A program made the position numbers and the translations under genes. From Bacteroidota bacterium (GTDB lineage: Bacteria; Bacteroidota; Bacteroidia; Chitinophagales; Chitinophagaceae): a DNA stretch of 55,269 bases. The notes beneath the pieces were generated by a model, which saw nothing but the letters and a program-made list of their open reading frames with translations, was not told where the DNA came from and did no database searches. The stretch is taken from contig JAUZOE010000025.1 in the NCBI GenBank assembly GCA_030706605.1, forward strand, positions 1 through 55,269. The letters are read 5' to 3'. Positions 7,784 through 19,190 of this stretch are shown piece after piece (position 1 is the stretch's first letter; every line of letters starts with the position of its first letter).

Positions 7784-8905
7784 CTAATTGAGTTTTACTT
7801 TATAAATAGTAATACTATGGTAATTTTCTCCCGGCCTTAAAATAGTTGACGGGAAGCCGGGTTGATTAGGTGAATCGGGGAAATGCTGTGTTTCCAGGCA
7901 TAGTGCTGTATGTTTTTTTATTGGATTACCATCGCGGTTAATAAAACTCCCGTCTAAAGAATTACCCGTATAAAATTGGAGAGCCGGCTCTGTGGTAAAA
8001 ACCTCCAGGGACCTTCCACTGACAGAATCTGATAGCTCTGCTACCTTTTGAAGTAAAGAATCATTTTTATTAAATACCCAATTATAATCAAAGCCCCCTT
8101 CCAGTAAACCAATATCCCGGCCAATTTTCTTGGGTGTTGTAAAATCAAATGCGGTATCTTTTACTGGCTTTATTTCTCCTGTCGGAATTAAATTACTGTC
8201 AACCGGGGTATAACTGTCAGCGGCAATCATCAATTTATGATCATAAATTGTATTACTTAAATCTCCGGATAAGTTAAAATAACTATGATTGGTTAAATTT
8301 ACGGGTGTGGCTTTATCTGTTGTAGCATTGTACTCAATTTTTAATTCATCTTCATCAGTTAACGAATATTGCACAGTAACATTAAGATTTCCAGGGTAAC
8401 CTTCCTCTCCATCTTCACTTAAATAATTCAGGGAAATACCTGTAATTCCATCAGGCAGTATTGTTGATTCCCAAACTACTTTATCAAAGCCTTTCAATCC
8501 TCCATGAAGATGATTCTTACCATTATTAGCAGCAAGCTGATAAGTAGCTCCATCCAAGGTAAATTTTGCTTCAGCAATACGATTCCCAAAACGGCCAACC
8601 AGTGACCCTAAATGAGGTGGATTTTTAAGATAGGGCTCCAAATTATCGAAGCCAACAATAACACTTGATTTTTCACCATTTTTGTCATCAGTTATAAATG
8701 AGGTAACTATACCACCATAATTAGTGATGGAAACTTCTGTGTCCTTGGCGTTGACCATGGTAAAAAGATATACTTGTTTACCATCTACCAGTCCCCAGTC
8801 AGATTTTGTAACCCCTGGCTTTTTTGCCGGAGCGTTATCATTTTCATCAGACTTATTGAAGGGCCCAATTATGTGTGGAAGTATAGCAGCAAGTATAAGA
8901 CTCAT
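7784..8905 (-). CDS. Aldose 1-epimerase (galactose mutarotase)
   Basis: This enzyme interconverts alpha and beta anomers of aldoses. Family signatures are clear: ITNYGGIV near the start, GRFGNRIA, the substrate loop NGKNHLHGG, the catalytic-His region NLTNHSYFNLSGD, and the C-terminal LETQHFPDSPNQPGF that holds the catalytic Glu. With the start at 8903-8905 it has 373 residues including a hydrophobic N-terminus (MSLILAAILPHIIG), so it is probably exported. A start at 8980 would overlap the GH28 gene by 26 bp and make a poor signal sequence. It follows GH28 by 49 bp and precedes the HAD gene, probably in one operon that releases and conditions sugars for uptake. Confidence 0.92.
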   Translation of the reverse strand: MSLILAAILPHIIGPFNKSDENDNAPAKKPGVTKSDWGLVDGKQVYLFTMVNAKDTEVSITNYGGIVTSFITDDKNGEKSSVIVGFDNLEPYLKNPPHLGSLVGRFGNRIAEAKFTLDGATYQLAANNGKNHLHGGLKGFDKVVWESTILPDGITGISLNYLSEDGEEGYPGNLNVTVQYSLTDEDELKIEYNATTDKATPVNLTNHSYFNLSGDLSNTIYDHKLMIAADSYTPVDSNLIPTGEIKPVKDTAFDFTTPKKIGRDIGLLEGGFDYNWVFNKNDSLLQKVAELSDSVSGRSLEVFTTEPALQFYTGNSLDGSFINRDGNPIKKHTALCLETQHFPDSPNQPGFPSTILRPGENYHSITIYKVKLN

Positions 8906-8954: not shown

Positions 8955-10496
8955 TTACAATTCTTTATTATTTGCGTCAATCCAATTTGTATTCGGGATA
9001 TGGGCAGTATTTTCTATATTAAAATTTTTAACCTCTCTAAGAATTATGGTGGGTACACCTTCTGATTTTTGGGAATGAATATGCTGAAAATCCGCACCAT
9101 CTACATTTTCAAGAATGTAAGCAGGACGCATATCCTCTGTAATAAAACTGGTTTCCACATTGCTGACTTTTAAGTCATTTACATCCCTGATAAAAAAACC
9201 ATACGAAGGGGTAATGCCAAACCTGGAAGGTTCCGGGTATTCTTTTGTTAATTCAGGAACTTTAATGGCTGCTTGTTCTTTAGTGCCTCCCCCTTTAAAA
9301 TAGATATGAATATTATCCAGCGAAATATCCTGTATTTTATGATCAGGTAAACCGACAATCAAAGCACCTTGTTTTGCGTTTACATCGTATGCAACAATAT
9401 TACTGATGATAACCCTTTTGACATCTCCAACCGGAGTGCCGGCAGGGCCGCGCATGCGTTCGCCCAGGCGAATAAATATAGGCGCATTTACAATATCTCT
9501 CATCGCAATATTAGAGATAGTTACATCTTCCAATAAAGCACCATCGACACTTTCAAGTGCAAAGCCACCGCAATAATCAAATACGCAATTGGATATTGTG
9601 ATATTTTTAAATCCACCATTAGATTCTGTTCCGAATTTTATACGCCCGGTGGGGCTATCGCCCTCTTCTTTTTTTAGTGTGCCATCCAAAAAAGAACCTT
9701 CCACAAAACCCGATACCTGGCAATTGGTAATGGTAACGTTTTCTGTAGCCCTGGGATAATTTAAAGCAAAATCACTCTTCAAACAAATAGCATCATCATG
9801 TGGTGAGTTTACACTACAATTAGATACTCTCACATTTTTGCAGGAAATAATATCCATTCCATCACGATTGGTGTCCATTTTAAGGTTGTCTATAGTCACA
9901 TTATCCAGACCATTTAATAAAAGGACAAACCAACCACCATGAAAAACTGTAAAATCTTTAAGAATAACATTCCGGCATAATTTTAAACTTATTGTTTTAT
10001 TTCCATACCCATTTTCTCCCTCTTTTCGGGTTGACCGGAGTAAGCCCTTCCCCCAAATTCTACCAGGACCCAGAATGGAAATGTTTTCAAGATTCTCGCC
10101 TACTATTAAACTATTGTGAAAATGACAATGCCCATAATCCTGGTAAATTTCGTTTGCATTTTTTTCAGGCAAATCGTATTGTGCCGATGGCGAAGTTTCT
10201 GCAGCTATGATTGTTGCTCCCTGGTCAAGGTATAAAGCAATATTGCTTTTGAGATGTATGGTCACTGATAAATAATTACCTGCCGGAAAATAAACAGTTC
10301 CTCCCCCGGCTGCTGCTGCCACATCAATCGCTTTATTAATTGCCTTACTATCAAGGTTTTTACCATTTCCTTTAGCCCCATAATCTTTCACATTATAAAA
10401 AGGGTTTGTTTTTGCGTTGGCTGTTTGAATACTACAAAAAACCAGCATAAAAGTTGCGAAGAAACAACCATACAATTTTCTCATATCAGATGTCAT
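8955..10496 (-). CDS. GH28 family polygalacturonase-like glycoside hydrolase
   Basis: The 513-residue protein has a signal peptide ending near TANA and begins its mature part with FYNVKDYGAKGNG, the usual opening of GH28 right-handed beta-helix enzymes. Active-site segments are present in order: NRDGMDI, SPHDDAICLKS (paired catalytic Asp) and GRIKFGTESNGG. GH28 enzymes hydrolyse galacturonic acid or rhamnogalacturonan linkages in pectin by inversion. NRDG instead of the classical NTDG, and TESNGG where others have GHG, place it in the Bacteroidota exo-type or rhamnogalacturonan-type branches rather than classical endo-polygalacturonases. ATG at 10494-10496 is used; Met5 (10482-10484) is an equally good start. 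Secreted or periplasmic action is expected. Confidence 0.9.
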   Translation of the reverse strand: MTSDMRKLYGCFFATFMLVFCSIQTANAKTNPFYNVKDYGAKGNGKNLDSKAINKAIDVAAAAGGGTVYFPAGNYLSVTIHLKSNIALYLDQGATIIAAETSPSAQYDLPEKNANEIYQDYGHCHFHNSLIVGENLENISILGPGRIWGKGLLRSTRKEGENGYGNKTISLKLCRNVILKDFTVFHGGWFVLLLNGLDNVTIDNLKMDTNRDGMDIISCKNVRVSNCSVNSPHDDAICLKSDFALNYPRATENVTITNCQVSGFVEGSFLDGTLKKEEGDSPTGRIKFGTESNGGFKNITISNCVFDYCGGFALESVDGALLEDVTISNIAMRDIVNAPIFIRLGERMRGPAGTPVGDVKRVIISNIVAYDVNAKQGALIVGLPDHKIQDISLDNIHIYFKGGGTKEQAAIKVPELTKEYPEPSRFGITPSYGFFIRDVNDLKVSNVETSFITEDMRPAYILENVDGADFQHIHSQKSEGVPTIILREVKNFNIENTAHIPNTNWIDANNKEL

Positions 10497-14159: not shown

Positions 14160-14510
14160 ATGGGATCTTCTTCAATGATTGTTTTAATTATAGCAGCACT
14201 TGCCTTTTCTTCCATTGCTATATTGATTGCTAAAATTGTAACAAAAGCTACTACCAATCCTCAAAAGGGTGAGCCTTACGAGTGTGGCATTCCCACTAAA
14301 GGCACCACGTGGAAACAATTGAACGTGGGGTATTATTTATTTGCATTGATATTTTTAATCTTTGATGTGGAGCTGGTATTCTTGTATCCGTGGGCCGTGG
14401 TGGCAAAGCATGTGGGATGGATGGCACTGGTTGAGATTATCATTTTCTTTTTTATATTATTTATGGGATTTTTATATGCACATAAAAAAGGCGCTTTAAA
14501 ATGGAAATAG
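14160..14510 (+). CDS. nuoA: NADH-quinone oxidoreductase subunit A
   Basis: The 116-residue membrane subunit of respiratory complex I has three predicted helices and the diagnostic loop GEPYECGIPTKG followed by FLIFDVELVFLYPWA, which lies next to the quinone chamber. It is the first gene of an eleven-subunit operon that runs to 24378. The ATG at 14160 is the only sensible start. Confidence 0.97.
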   Translation: MGSSSMIVLIIAALAFSSIAILIAKIVTKATTNPQKGEPYECGIPTKGTTWKQLNVGYYLFALIFLIFDVELVFLYPWAVVAKHVGWMALVEIIIFFFILFMGFLYAHKKGALKWK

Positions 14511-14587
14511 GGCAGGTATAGCAAGAATTGAAATTGTAGACCGGAGACTTGAATGATTAAAATTATTAAAGAGAATACATCATATTA

Positions 14588-15166
14588 ATGAGTGACACTT
14601 CAAATAATGTAAGGACTTCAAAAGTCCCCTTCCCTGGAGGGGATTTAGGGGAGGCCTCTTTCCCGGGGCAAATACATGAAACACCCGGAGGCGGTATTGT
14701 ATTGAGCAAACTGGATGATGTGATTAACTGGGCGCGTTCCAATTCATTATGGCCATTGACCTTCGCAACCAGCTGCTGTGGAATTGAAATGATGTCTGTT
14801 GCGGCGGCCAAATACGATTTTTCAAGATTTGGGTTTGAAGTAGCACGTGCCTCACCCCGGCAGGCTGATGTGATCATTATTGCCGGAACTATTGTGAATA
14901 AAATGGCGCCGGTTCTAAAAAGATTATATGACCAGATGGCTGACCCTAAATATGTAATTGCTATGGGTGCCTGTGCTATCAGTGGCGGGCCATTTTTTTA
15001 CAATACTTATTCGGTGGTGAAAGGAACTGACCATGTGATACCGGTTGACGTATATGTAGCAGGTTGTCCCCCAAGACCGGAAGCTTTGTTACATGCATTG
15101 ATAAGTTTACAGCAAAAAATAAAAAGCGGTTTAACAAGAGAACAAATAAAGACAGGTAAAGAATAA
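14588..15166 (+). CDS. nuoB: NADH-quinone oxidoreductase subunit B, with repeat-encoded N-terminal segment
   Basis: NuoB holds the terminal iron-sulfur cluster N2 that passes electrons to quinone. All four cluster ligands are present: Cys63-Cys64 ([11 protein letters not shown]), Cys129 (MGACAISGG) and Cys160 (VAGCPPRPE). The product has 192 residues. Residues 9-23 ([15 protein letters not shown]) do not look like NuoB: they are encoded by a GC-rich repeat element (14613-14655) that also occurs between nuoC and nuoD. The conserved part starts around residue 33. A later start is unlikely, since the next in-frame ATG (Met68) lies beyond the cluster cysteines. It lies 77 bp after nuoA and 3 bp before nuoC. 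Confidence 0.96.
14613..14655 (+). repeat. GC-rich inverted-repeat element, copy 1 (inside nuoB)
   Basis: The element opens with a small hairpin half (GGACTTCAAAAGTCC) followed by CCTTCCCTGGAGGGG and ATTTAGGGGAGGCC. It aligns over about 41 bases with copy 2 (15702-15742), with only a few differences, and is translated in frame as NuoB residues 9-23. Same orientation as copy 2; copies 3 and 4 look like a related, reverse-complemented form. Confidence 0.85.
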
Positions 15167-15169
15167 TAA

Positions 15170-15628
15170 ATGGAGAACGAAGAGTTGAAAACCACAATAA
15201 CAGCATTGCTTCCTTCAGCCACATTTGAAGAGGATGGTGAGTGGCTCAATATCAATATTGAATCAAAAGATTGGTTACCATTTGCACAGCAGTTGCGCAA
15301 GGGTGATTCTTTATTTTTCGATTATCTCTTTTGCCTTACCTGCATCGACTGGAAGACACATCTTACAATGGTGTACCACTTGTCTTCTACAAAATACAGA
15401 CACAATATTGTGGTGAAATCCAAACTTGACAGCAGCAACCCCGAAATAGAAACGGTAAGTAACATATGGAGAACAGCAGATTTTCATGAAAGAGAAGTGT
15501 ATGAAATGTTTGGTGTGAATTTTTTGAATCATCCTGATTTAAGATTGTTGATTTTACCGGATGGATGGGAAGGGAAAAAACCAATGCTAAAAGATTTTGA
15601 AGACCCAATAAATATGATAAAACTATAA
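15170..15628 (+). CDS. nuoC: NADH-quinone oxidoreductase subunit C
   Basis: The 152-residue peripheral subunit carries the 30-kDa subunit signature W(R)TADFHEREVYEMFGV followed by HPDLRLLILPDGWEG. It helps hold the hydrophilic arm near NuoD. It is a separate gene here, not fused to nuoD. The stop codon is immediately followed by repeat copy 3. Confidence 0.95.
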   Translation: MENEELKTTITALLPSATFEEDGEWLNINIESKDWLPFAQQLRKGDSLFFDYLFCLTCIDWKTHLTMVYHLSSTKYRHNIVVKSKLDSSNPEIETVSNIWRTADFHEREVYEMFGVNFLNHPDLRLLILPDGWEGKKPMLKDFEDPINMIKL

Positions 15629-15661
15629 AGCCCCCTCTAACTCCCCCAGAGGGGGGAGAAC
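15629..15661 (-). repeat. GC-rich inverted-repeat element, copy 3 (after nuoC)
   Basis: The plus strand reads AGCCCCCTCTAACTCCCCCA, then a G/A-rich half (GAGGGGGGAGAAC). It matches copy 4 (19124-19155) over 32-33 bases with few differences. Its reverse complement has the same block order as copies 1 and 2 (CCCC, TGG, GGGG, TTA, GGGG), so it is given the opposite strand. Confidence 0.85.
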
Positions 15662-15701
15662 AAGGCAAAAACATTATGTATAGACAAACTAAAATAATTG
15701 A

Positions 15702-15742
15702 AGACTTTCAAAGTCCCTCCCCTGGAGGGGTTTGGGGAGGCC
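15702..15742 (+). repeat. GC-rich inverted-repeat element, copy 2 (nuoC-nuoD spacer)
   Basis: The sequence reads AGACTTTCAAAGTCCCTCCC followed by CTGGAGGGG and TTTGGGGAGGCC, nearly the same as copy 1. With copy 3, 40 bp away in opposite orientation, it makes a paired arrangement like the bacterial interspersed mosaic elements known from REP sequences. Confidence 0.85.
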
Positions 15743-15759
15743 GATATAATTAAACTCTA

Positions 15760-16875
15760 ATGGTTGAAGAAATAGGCACAACGGAAGAAGGGGATTTAAT
15801 CATAAACGTAGGACCACAGCATCCTGCCACGCATGGCGTGTTGCATTTAGTGATTACGTTAAATGGTGAAACCATAAAAAAAGTAGAGCCTCATTTGGGT
15901 TATATACATCGCTCTATAGAGAAAATGTGTGAGAGCTTAACCTATCGACAGTTCATTTATGTCACCAGCCGGATGGATTATCTCTCTGCTCACATTAACA
16001 ACCATGCATGTGCGTTATGTGTAGAAAAAGGTTTACAGGTAGAAATTCCTCCGAGGGCACAGGTGATAAGAGTGCTAATGGATGAGCTTACAAGAATTGC
16101 ATCGCATGAATTATGGTGGGGTGCCATGGCTATGGACCTTGGTGCGTTTACTCCTTTCTTCCATGCATTCAGGGAAAGAGAAACCATCAATGATATTATG
16201 GAAGAAACCTGTGGTGCAAGATTAACAATGAACTATATGGTTCCGGGTGGAGTAATGGCCGATTTGCATCCAAATTTTCAAAAGAAAGTAAAGGAATTTA
16301 TCACCTTATATAAATTAAAGATCAAAGAATACGACGAACTGGTTACCGGTAATATTATTTTTCAAAACCGTATGAAAGGTGTTGGATATTTATCTGCTGA
16401 GGATGCCATATCGTACGGATGCACCGGGCCAACAGCAAGAGGCAGTGGAGTAAGTTGCGATATCCGCAAATTGTATCCATATGAAGTTTATGATAAACTG
16501 GAATTTGATGAAGTTCTGGAAACGGAAGGTGATTCTTTTGCCCGTTATATGGTACGGTTAGGAGAAATGAATCAATCCATAAAAATAATAGAACAGTTAA
16601 TCGATAATATTCCGGAAGGTGATTTCCAGGCCAAGACAAAAGTGGTGCTGAAATTACCCAAAGGAGAATTTTATTCAAGAGTGGAAACAGCTCGGGGAGA
16701 ACTAGGTGTATATATTGTTAGCGAAGGAGGATCGACTCCTTACAGGATTAAATTCCGCTCACCGGGATTTTCTAATCTTTCAGCATTAGATCATATGGCA
16801 AGAGGCCATTTGTTGGGAGATCTGGTAGCAATGATGGGAACACTTGATTTGGTGATACCGGATATTGACAGATAG
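15760..16875 (+). CDS. nuoD: NADH-quinone oxidoreductase subunit D
   Basis: The 371-residue subunit of the 49-kDa family lines the quinone-binding site. Conserved segments include VGPQHPATHGVLH, PHLGYIHRSIEKM, SRMDYLSAHINNHACALCVEK, the GCTGPTARGSG region and the C-terminal PSFSNLSALDHMARGHL-type motif. Length is slightly short but typical for versions not fused to NuoC. The next gene is nuoH, not nuoE, which is unusual for the canonical gene order. Confidence 0.96.
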   Translation: MVEEIGTTEEGDLIINVGPQHPATHGVLHLVITLNGETIKKVEPHLGYIHRSIEKMCESLTYRQFIYVTSRMDYLSAHINNHACALCVEKGLQVEIPPRAQVIRVLMDELTRIASHELWWGAMAMDLGAFTPFFHAFRERETINDIMEETCGARLTMNYMVPGGVMADLHPNFQKKVKEFITLYKLKIKEYDELVTGNIIFQNRMKGVGYLSAEDAISYGCTGPTARGSGVSCDIRKLYPYEVYDKLEFDEVLETEGDSFARYMVRLGEMNQSIKIIEQLIDNIPEGDFQAKTKVVLKLPKGEFYSRVETARGELGVYIVSEGGSTPYRIKFRSPGFSNLSALDHMARGHLLGDLVAMMGTLDLVIPDIDR

Positions 16876-18150: not shown

Positions 18151-18627
18151 ATGTTTATAGTAAAATACATAAAAGAAGTTTTCAATGCTGTAAAGTCATT
18201 GCTTGTTGGTCTTAGGCGGACAGGATATTATTTTACACATCACAAGGAAATCATAACACAACAATATCCTGATAATAGAGATACTTTACATTTTCCCGAT
18301 CGTTTCAAAGGCGAAGTAGTAATGCCGCACAATGAAAATAATGAGCACCGTTGTACGGGTTGTACTGCCTGCGAACTGGCGTGCCCTAACGGAACCATTA
18401 AAGTGATTACCCAATTTGACATTACCCCTGAAGGAAAAAAGAAAAAAGCGATTGACAAATTAGTCTATCACCTGGAACTGTGTACGATGTGTAACCTTTG
18501 TATCATCGCTTGTCCATCAGATGCTATTGTAATGGCGCAAACATTCGAACACAGTGTCTTTGACCGAAGCGAATTGACCAAAATATTAAATAATCCCGGT
18601 TCTAAAATAATGGAGGGAGTAGAATAA
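18151..18627 (+). CDS. nuoI: NADH-quinone oxidoreductase subunit I (2x 4Fe-4S ferredoxin)
   Basis: The 158-residue protein carries two 4Fe-4S clusters, N6a and N6b: Cys68, 71, 74, 78 (CTGCTACELACP) and Cys111, 114, 117, 121 (CTMCNLCIIACP). In a complete complex I they receive electrons from NuoG; with no NuoEFG in this operon, this subunit is the natural docking point for an alternative donor such as ferredoxin or flavodoxin (inference). Its stop overlaps the nuoJ start (TAATG). Confidence 0.96.
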   Translation: MFIVKYIKEVFNAVKSLLVGLRRTGYYFTHHKEIITQQYPDNRDTLHFPDRFKGEVVMPHNENNEHRCTGCTACELACPNGTIKVITQFDITPEGKKKKAIDKLVYHLELCTMCNLCIIACPSDAIVMAQTFEHSVFDRSELTKILNNPGSKIMEGVE

Positions 18628-19190
18628 TGAGCGGATCAACAATTATATTTTATATGCTGGCAGCACTTACCTTAGTAAGCGGATTGTTTGCTGTAGGAAC
18701 ACGGCAAATATTCAGGGCTGCTATCTTTTTATTATTTTCTTTAATCGGCGTGGCCGGTTTGTATTTCTGGATGCAGTATGAATTTATTGCAGCGGTGCAA
18801 ATCGTAGTCTATGTTGGCGGCATAACTGTCCTGATCATCTTCTCTATTTTTTTAACGCAGCAGACAGGAGAAAAAATGCCCAAACAAAAATTGGGCAGGC
18901 AAATTTTTTCTGCCCTGGCAGCCTTTTGTGGCTTTGCCTTAATTATGCTGCAGGTATACCAGCATACATTCACCTTCACTGGTAGCTTAAACCTAATAGT
19001 AGACCCAAATGTTCAAAATATCGGTAATCAAATGCTGGGAGTGAACAATGGCGGTTATGCATTACCATTTGAAGTAGTTAGTATGTTGTTGCTGGCGGCG
19101 CTTATTGGGTGTATTCTAATTGCAGCCCCCTCTAACTCCCCCAAAAGGGGAGAACTGCCGCACTCTAACCCTAAATCTGAAACAACATGA
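18627..19190 (+). CDS. nuoJ: NADH-quinone oxidoreductase subunit J, with repeat-encoded C-terminus
   Basis: This membrane subunit of 187 residues has five predicted helices and the conserved QYEFIAAVQIVVYVGGITVL segment of helix 3. The natural end of the family is close to LLLAALIGCILIA; here residues 166-177 (APSNSPKRGEL and neighbours) are encoded by a GC-rich repeat element (19124-19155) and the frame then continues to residue 187. So about 22 residues of the tail look acquired. The stop codon overlaps the nuoK start (ATGA). Confidence 0.95.
   Translation: MSGSTIIFYMLAALTLVSGLFAVGTRQIFRAAIFLLFSLIGVAGLYFWMQYEFIAAVQIVVYVGGITVLIIFSIFLTQQTGEKMPKQKLGRQIFSALAAFCGFALIMLQVYQHTFTFTGSLNLIVDPNVQNIGNQMLGVNNGGYALPFEVVSMLLLAALIGCILIAAPSNSPKRGELPHSNPKSETT
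19124..19155 (-). repeat. GC-rich inverted-repeat element, copy 4 (inside nuoJ)
   Basis: The plus strand reads AGCCCCCTCTAACTCCCCCA, then AAAGGGGAGAAC, nearly the same as copy 3 after nuoC. It is translated as part of the NuoJ C-terminal tail. Confidence 0.85.

Follow-up and report, generated by a model that had tools for sequence, protein, structure and literature searches.

The window, by which the whole stretch of 55,269 nucleotides analysed here is meant, is an entire contig (C18) of a 4.27 Mb genome of 71 contigs and harbors genes of a nuo operon. On its plus strand nuoA (14160..14510; PF00507, 7.9e-35), the stop codon of which forms the left border of a remodelled junction, is separated by a spacer (14511..14587) from nuoB (14588..15166), which encodes 192 amino acids with a re-made N-terminus and is matched by PF01058 (6.6e-30, residues 63-173) as well as by NuoB models starting at about residue 30. 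Residues 10-23 are encoded by a GC-rich element (14615..14656, plus strand) recovered by a sequence pattern, a covariance model and a geometry scan; within it AAAGTCCCCTTCCCTGGAGGGGATTTAGGGGAGGCC at 14621-14656 lies in frame with the nuoB ORF and accounts for part of residues 9-23. The element comprises three short arms, all on the plus strand, namely the pyrimidine arm 1 TCCCCTTC (14625..14632), which is complementary in seven of eight positions to the purine arm 2 GGAGGGGA (14636..14643), and the purine arm 3 AGGGGAGG (14647..14654), an exact mirror of arm 2 across TTT. The 31-base pattern of the element, which includes three free bases, matches the window once at up to three mismatches and is found in none of 100 shuffles; together with the agreement of covariance model and geometry scan, this shows the GC-rich element first proposed by a sequence-only reading of this DNA to be real.

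Phe25, Pro26 and Gly27 of NuoB (the FPG motif) are conserved in at least 90% of 34 homologues. The sole in-frame ATG, GTG or TTG located 5′ of this motif in the nuoB ORF is ATG 14588, the next start candidate being a TTG at codon 39, and therefore the element is translated if NuoB is made. Judged from the open frame, a GC-rich mobile-type element is read as part of NuoB, a respiratory enzyme. The same genome encodes a second NuoB with 53% identity (G000:C67:147093-147569), which leaves the description of nuoB as an essential gene in the sequence-only reading unsupported. Given this second copy, the nuo operon of the window may represent an additional complex I. The AlphaFold prediction of the window's NuoB has a mean pLDDT of 43 and was therefore left unused.

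Four element copies are detected in the window by the covariance model, which was trained on 16 copies including the first three of these (14615, 15627 and 15709). A scan for geometry only, i.e. for a pyrimidine hairpin followed by a mirrored third arm, returns exactly the same four places in 55,269 bases and nothing else. Besides the NuoB copy, these are an inverted partner directly 3′ of the nuoC stop codon (15627..15662, minus strand; 31.3 bits, E 8.4e-6; geometry scan 15631-15659), a second element at 15709..15745 (plus strand; 44.7 bits, geometry scan 15714-15740), which like the NuoB copy scores 44 bits, and a fourth at 19122..19158 (minus strand; 23.2 bits). The latter runs antisense and yet in frame near the C-terminus of ORF 18627-19190, by position a putative NuoJ. 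In the nuoA-nuoB spacer (14511..14587), the left inverted partner element seen in several relatives is undetected in the window.

The copy at 15709-15745 had been described, with the coordinates 15702-15742, as a nearly base-for-base repeat in the nuoC-nuoD spacer. The copy does exist, its identity to the NuoB copy being 82% (query positions 3-53 of 63, E 5e-6 in a whole-genome search), but the wording was generous, as loops and arms differ, and the location was misjudged. As far as the reading frames indicate, it lies within the former NuoD N-terminus MYRQTKIIEDFQSPSPGGVWGGRYN (15676..15753, plus strand), which begins at the in-frame ATG 15676 and is closed by the TAA at 15751-15753, while nuoD as now open extends from 15760 to 16875 on the plus strand as an ORF with a GPQHP motif. 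A NuoD start is readable in 77 of 81 loci, many of which begin with MYRQTEII.D or similar, and in genome G002 (L023) the element is still coding at the NuoD start, MYRQTEIISDDSESPSPGGFGEAGDLIINVGPQHP. Since the 15709-15745 copy is in frame with NuoD and followed by a stop codon, the window contains one translated copy, in NuoB, and one in a closed coding remnant.

Relatives for a comparison of the nuoA-nuoB junction came from a protein search of 59 genomes and from one of a genome collection, in which the best 80 of at least 571 confirmed hits were kept; with the window these make up 81 loci, two of which lack a distance value. The distance from the nuoA stop to the FPG motif is 20-29 nt in 32 of the 81 loci, in which the genes overlap and NuoB starts with N-termini such as MDVKENIQQAVEFPGQIHE; carriers of the element span 90-319 nt (the window 151 nt) and non-carriers up to 105 nt. 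Carrier labels were assigned by hand from peptide and DNA and give 18 carriers, 61 junctions without the element and two doubtful cases (L059 and L113), which were left out. At E≤0.5 the covariance model recovers the coding copy for 12 of these 18 carriers, seven of the 12 stemming from its own training set, and it supports an upstream inverted partner in seven of the 12. Several carriers contain two inverted copies, the first abutting the nuoA stop and the second, which is coding, lying immediately 5′ of the FPG motif, and although the element sequences vary between genomes, this architecture is kept. The check proposed in the sequence-only reading, an alignment of NuoB from relatives, thus gave the expected result, the segment being absent or different in most of them and not alike in all.

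On a tree of the NuoB core, NuoA and NuoD the carrier label is patchy and requires 13 changes for 18 carriers; a single origin for all NuoB carriers was rejected on this count, with the qualification that the tree was built by a quick method, that 35 of its 78 inner branches are weak and that gains and losses are indistinguishable on it. The nature of the event is illustrated by L057 and L068, which have near-identical flanks and differ by the element, with the coding half placed directly before TTTTCCCGG. By eye, MTEQKNTTND of the empty site corresponds to MQEEKKISND of the filled one, which points to a local insertion or replacement with a re-made start rather than to a drop into the middle of an unchanged ORF. 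In the carriers the ancestral overlap of nuoA with nuoB and a few residues at the N-terminus were exchanged and a new start codon was acquired. The earlier view that the element landed in frame and was kept is consequently right as to retention and translation but not in leaving nuoB otherwise unchanged. At the nuoB sites of L017, L020 and L023 (genomes G006, G031 and G002) the copies differ in sequence while sharing the architecture, as though each genome had substituted its own version or homogenised the copies to it. Several inverted element pairs are distributed along the nuo region of a Ferruginibacter MAG (L051:5756-6071, 8266-8445 and 9524-9704), which also includes an apparent duplicated junction.

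A clear hairpin is found in 139 of 141 copies, or 104 copies after removal of repeats. Of these 104 copies, 54 have a third arm that mirrors the second perfectly and 7 one that repeats it perfectly in direct orientation; perfect mirrors numbered 15.2 on average and at most 23 when the tails were dealt among the copies in 300 trials. Likewise, the mean mirror identity is 0.894 versus 0.761 (maximum 0.787) in the dealt control; as the copies are interrelated and most of them were collected with a model built from such copies, a bias shared by the control, these figures do not translate into a strict probability. Since the geometry scan presupposes the mirror, its hits do not count as evidence for it. 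A purine-motif intramolecular triplex needs a pyrimidine arm, a purine arm and a mirrored purine arm. The tendency of the third arm to mirror the purine arm, and the covariation it entails, support a purine-triplex design as far as sequence can tell. Folded as DNA, the NuoB copy alone is no more stable than its shuffles (z -0.09); the nuoC-nuoD pair folds better than shuffles with DNA parameters (z -2.87).

Plain sequence patterns failed as a genome-wide probe, each returning the nuoB copy alone in the window's own genome, and a BLAST search with the 15709-15745 copy gave 12 matches, ten of them at E 0.01 or worse. Because the copies vary, the patterns were replaced by the covariance model. 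In 19 genomes, with up to 150 candidates scored in each and the counts thus being lower bounds, at least 10 matches at E≤0.05 are present in the window's own genome, at least 11 in G006, 34 in G002, 59 in G015, 92 in G009, 46 in G031, 30 in G032, 10 in G023, 8 in G003 and one in each of three genomes; seven of the 19 genomes have none at this threshold. The genome-wide count of copies overlapping coding regions, likewise proposed beforehand, yields 12 matches at E≤0.5 in the own genome, six of which lie inside ORFs of at least 150 aa, namely NuoB, ORF 18627-19190, a large conserved protein, IcmF (twice) and a 335-aa ORF. In L229:2526-2833 (G009) six element copies form a tandem array with a period of about 54 nt, which to the eye is CRISPR-like.

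Copies occur in intergenic positions, at the ends of genes and, in frame, within conserved proteins. From nine genomes 104 places were sampled (111 model matches minus 7 repeats of places already counted), of which 60 are wholly inside ORFs of at least 150 aa and 44 are not. Random positions in the same loci fall into such ORFs more often (2427 of 3000); genes are under-used by the elements but far from avoided. The 60 copies in ORFs are mostly read in one of two frames, 35 of them in a sense frame (KVSPxGGDLEGA) and 12 in an antisense frame (APSKSPPxGET), a preference partly explained by stop codons in the other frames. Further carriers are, presumably, MetRS, NadB, UvrA and isopropylmalate isomerase, as read from sequence. 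The AroA carrier of G015 shows a net gain of six residues at the site relative to solved EPSP synthases, a comparison weaker than one among orthologues.

Such an orthologue comparison is provided by the large conserved protein, which we take to be alpha-2-macroglobulin-like and which contains four element sites in orthologues from 14 loci. The first site, RIVAKAGDV-SDGEEA, is empty in 10 and filled in 3 of 13 orthologues, with one row not covering it, and the window's own genome is among the three filled ones, KASPHGEGLEVA. The second site is filled in 1, the third in 2 and the fourth in 4 of 14, one of the latter four being decayed. At the first three sites the net gain amounts to 7-8 residues with a few host residues replaced, and orthologues without the insertion keep the host frame, which in this one protein and its 14 orthologues is the behavior expected of insertions of the Rickettsia palindromic element type. 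Neither a target-site duplication nor a constant insert length was established, and the empty and filled pairs, here as at the nuoA-nuoB junction, often show replacement of a few residues and not pure insertion.

A longer form of the element became apparent in two IcmF-like ORFs, where an extra domain between element copies is assigned by Pfam to DUF559 (PF04480). This family is present in 105 of 197 Bacteroidia genomes; among the matches listed, 150 of which were tallied by hand, 65 belong to ORFs with 300 aa or more and 81 to ORFs with fewer than 200. There are 41 DUF559 ORFs of at least 280 aa. Pfam was run on 30 of them, and L247 and L272, likewise among the 41, are the IcmF-like proteins found first; in all 30 a host family was identified besides DUF559. 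The hosts are LeuRS (11), MetH (7), a class I tRNA synthetase fragment, an IleRS-like protein, a PurL-type amidotransferase, HsdR, RecJ, acetyl-CoA synthetase, IcmF (own genome), chorismate synthase, TrpA, CinA, an amino-acid kinase and an M23 peptidase (one each). The host domains split by DUF559 include the MetH activation domain, chorismate synthase, AMP-binding and DHH domains. The own genome contains one long form, inside IcmF. As far as the open frames reveal, the long form is a DUF559 domain beside or between inverted element copies and in frame with the host protein, from which fused host-DUF559 proteins are predicted. In 11 of the 12 genomes with a LeuRS carrier there is a single LeuRS editing-domain match at E <1e-40, and it resides in the DUF559-bearing ORF; ten of these 11 also have one weak partial match, taken for a related synthetase, and the twelfth genome (G031) has two contigs with LeuRS pieces. 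In one LeuRS ORF (L245:1480-3075, G032) the editing domain lies between two DUF559 domains. At L284:1486-2385 (G113) a tandem pair of DUF559 genes is found with elements on both sides of each.

The residues Thr29, Glu32, Trp36, Gln51, Asp60, Glu71, Asp73, Gly74, His77, Arg89 and Arg102 of DUF559 are invariant in 51 aligned sequences and comprise the EDxHD-like candidate residues Glu32, Asp60, Glu71, Asp73 and His77. The predicted DUF559 structure (pLDDT 85.8) is most similar in fold to an endonuclease-like protein (3hrl, 7.3e-7), and it matches I-Bth0305I (3r3p_B) with an E of 6.6e-4 and TM scores of 0.53 by query and 0.68 by target. On the strength of this model, the domain resembles an EDxHD-like nuclease of the homing-endonuclease type and is a putative enzyme.

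Elements and DUF559 are tightly linked by position. In the geometry scan an element lies within 320 nt of 49 out of 56 distinct DUF559 domains (58 in total, with L245 and L258 holding the same two) and on both sides of 32, leaving seven domains with none within this distance; the 320-nt limit and the mismatch rules are the analysts' choice. An element is nearby for 36 of 39 domains in ORFs of at least 280 aa and for 13 of the remaining 17. The left copies are on the minus strand in 41 of 52 and the right copies on the plus strand in 44 of 53 cases, so that the third arms mostly point outward. Near DUF559 105 elements occur in 35.8 kb, elsewhere in the DUF559 loci 16, and in loci of RAYT, the Y1-type transposase (PF01797), a single geometry hit in 96.1 kb. 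The covariance model gives 37 matches at E≤0.1 in 30 DUF559 loci, some of which overlap, and none in the 30 RAYT loci (96.1 kb) among the matches listed. On this linkage RAYT, the partner of REPINs, was ruled out as the mover. Element counts per genome correlate with both DUF559 (Spearman 0.66) and RAYT (0.51), for which reason the argument rests on physical proximity. Genomes with DUF559 domains and no element matches (G028, 3/0; G033, 2/0) and with element matches and no DUF559 (G003, 8/0) are both found.

Several known systems share features with this family. Rickettsia palindromic elements (RPE) are short repeats found in intergenic regions as well as inside coding sequences, where they leave the frame intact, according to the accessible part of PMC4316617. 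The present copies are likewise both intergenic and in frame inside ORFs; they belong to another phylum, consist of halves of about 36-40 nt or of inverted pairs with a mirrored third arm as opposed to the roughly 100-150 nt described for RPE, and have a long form with an in-frame endonuclease, RPE sequences being compared by description only; the family behaves like RPE without being classed among them. The sequence-only reading, which had invoked the Rickettsia elements, was therefore right in kind, as a palindromic repeat of mobile type is kept as protein sequence here and recurs in frame in other genes, but the idea was too small, missing the inverted partner, the NuoD remnant, the copy at 19122, the mirror structure and the endonuclease-bearing long form. 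Rickettsia is the best-known source of coding palindromes. We know of no nuclease associated with RPEs, and to our knowledge the means of spread of the coding palindromes of Rickettsia was never found.

I-Bth0305I is listed among the homing endonucleases of group I intron type (PMC3943268, available part), with which the DUF559 model shares its fold; in contrast, the domain described here remains part of the reading frame of host proteins, with structured repeats at its flanks. The ShiLan insertion in a phage methylase codes for an endonuclease, preserves the open frame of its host and lacks a splicing domain, as presented in the accessible portion of PMC11855218. There, as far as that portion goes, an HNH enzyme is out of frame with its host. 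The DUF559 nuclease is in frame instead, occurs in many hosts throughout a class and comes with structured flanks as well as short derivatives. Inteins resemble the long form in their in-frame insertion of a homing-type nuclease into conserved enzymes; no intein/Hint family was detected by Pfam at E≤1e-8 in the 30 DUF559-carrier ORFs. REPINs, introduced in the available part of PMC6006769 as inverted pairs of GC-rich palindromes, are alike in that arrangement, but in the 30 Y1-transposase loci described above the covariance model has no match. No publication on a DUF559-repeat system was found, nor any paper with the term DUF559 in title or abstract; coverage of subscription journals was poor, which makes the novelty provisional, and the element family with its in-frame DUF559 long form is apparently undescribed.

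A repeat of the same hairpin-plus-mirror geometry is present in E. coli K-12 (NC_000913.3; L274:11206-11240) at a distance of 167 bases from ycjD, a DUF559 gene. The geometry scan gives one hit in 20 kb at ycjD compared to two in 150 kb of control, for this single gene. Repeats of this type are found in 5375 of 5426 E. coli genomes, with 16 places per genome as the median. The BoxC and Cod-2 repeats are treated in PMC2267715, as seen in its accessible part; the repeat beside ycjD is, as we read it, box-C-like. A partnership between DUF559 and box C in E. coli is possible, based on one gene. Another GC block overlaps the 3′ end of ycjD.

Taken together, we assign a probability of about 0.72 to the reading that NuoB contains, in translated form, a short non-autonomous copy from a structured mobile-element family of Bacteroidia moved by DUF559. 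The movement and its chemistry are inferred from sequence. In this model the DUF559 enzyme would act on the structured ends, either the hairpin or the hairpin with the purine third strand, perhaps on single-stranded DNA at replication or repair, and would move the long forms as well as, in trans, the short ones, which might also be remnants. Selection would then retain insertions whose open frame yields a flexible peptide of Gly, Ser, Pro and Asp in a loop or at a terminus. At the nuoA-nuoB junction such an event would have replaced the overlapping start and provided a new start codon just 5′ of the element, which became residues 10-23 of NuoB.

The chief rival, which we consider unlikely yet serious, holds that the repeats are targets and not ends, i.e. 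that they spread otherwise, that DUF559 homes into or next to them and that recombination between repeats does the rest. It is in line with short copies far outnumbering DUF559 domains (e.g. 59 versus 4 in G015), with single halves standing alone in genes, with the elements of G003, which has no DUF559, and with event borders resembling replacement. Homing into one repeat would, however, split it, whereas 32 of the 56 domains have complete copies on both sides, and the strand preferences given above show the flanking copies to be mostly inverted.

That the junction elements are regulatory RNA structures, serving translation coupling or message stability in the nuo operon with coding being incidental, appears improbable. 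The inverted pairs at nuoA-nuoB and nuoC-nuoD, the stability of the latter pair (with DNA parameters) and an architecture kept while the sequence changes would all suit an RNA function, but copies are also found deep inside ORFs of many unrelated proteins, most of the related junctions (61 of 81) do without the element and the NuoB copy alone has no excess stability. Hardly credible is the proposal that the NuoB copy is a chance GC-rich stretch or that NuoB starts downstream of it: bacterial start calls can err and the N-termini of the carriers are variable, and against this stand the result with 100 shuffles, the lack of an in-frame start between element and FPG motif and the intact copies at the same nuoB site in other genomes.

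Beyond the preferred reading of the NuoB segment as a DUF559-moved copy, we see about even chances for a broader one, in which a Bacteroidia-wide selfish element, consisting of a homing-type DUF559 nuclease between triplex-forming ends, inserts in frame, is retained in mature essential enzymes and gives rise to swarms of short coding derivatives such as that in NuoB; its partnership may extend to YcjD and box C of E. coli, as a second system parallel to RAYT/REP. Since a candidate enzyme is encoded in physical linkage with the repeats and short forms occur alongside long ones, the spread of coding repeats becomes directly testable. The mirrored arms predict that the ends of a mobile element fold into an intramolecular triplex of the purine motif, and the in-frame nuclease in the sole strong LeuRS match of 11 out of 12 genomes raises the question of how a tRNA synthetase tolerates a nuclease in the middle of the protein. 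More generally, loop insertions in LeuRS, MetH, AroA and other enzymes of Bacteroidota may be mobile DNA and not loops evolved by the host.
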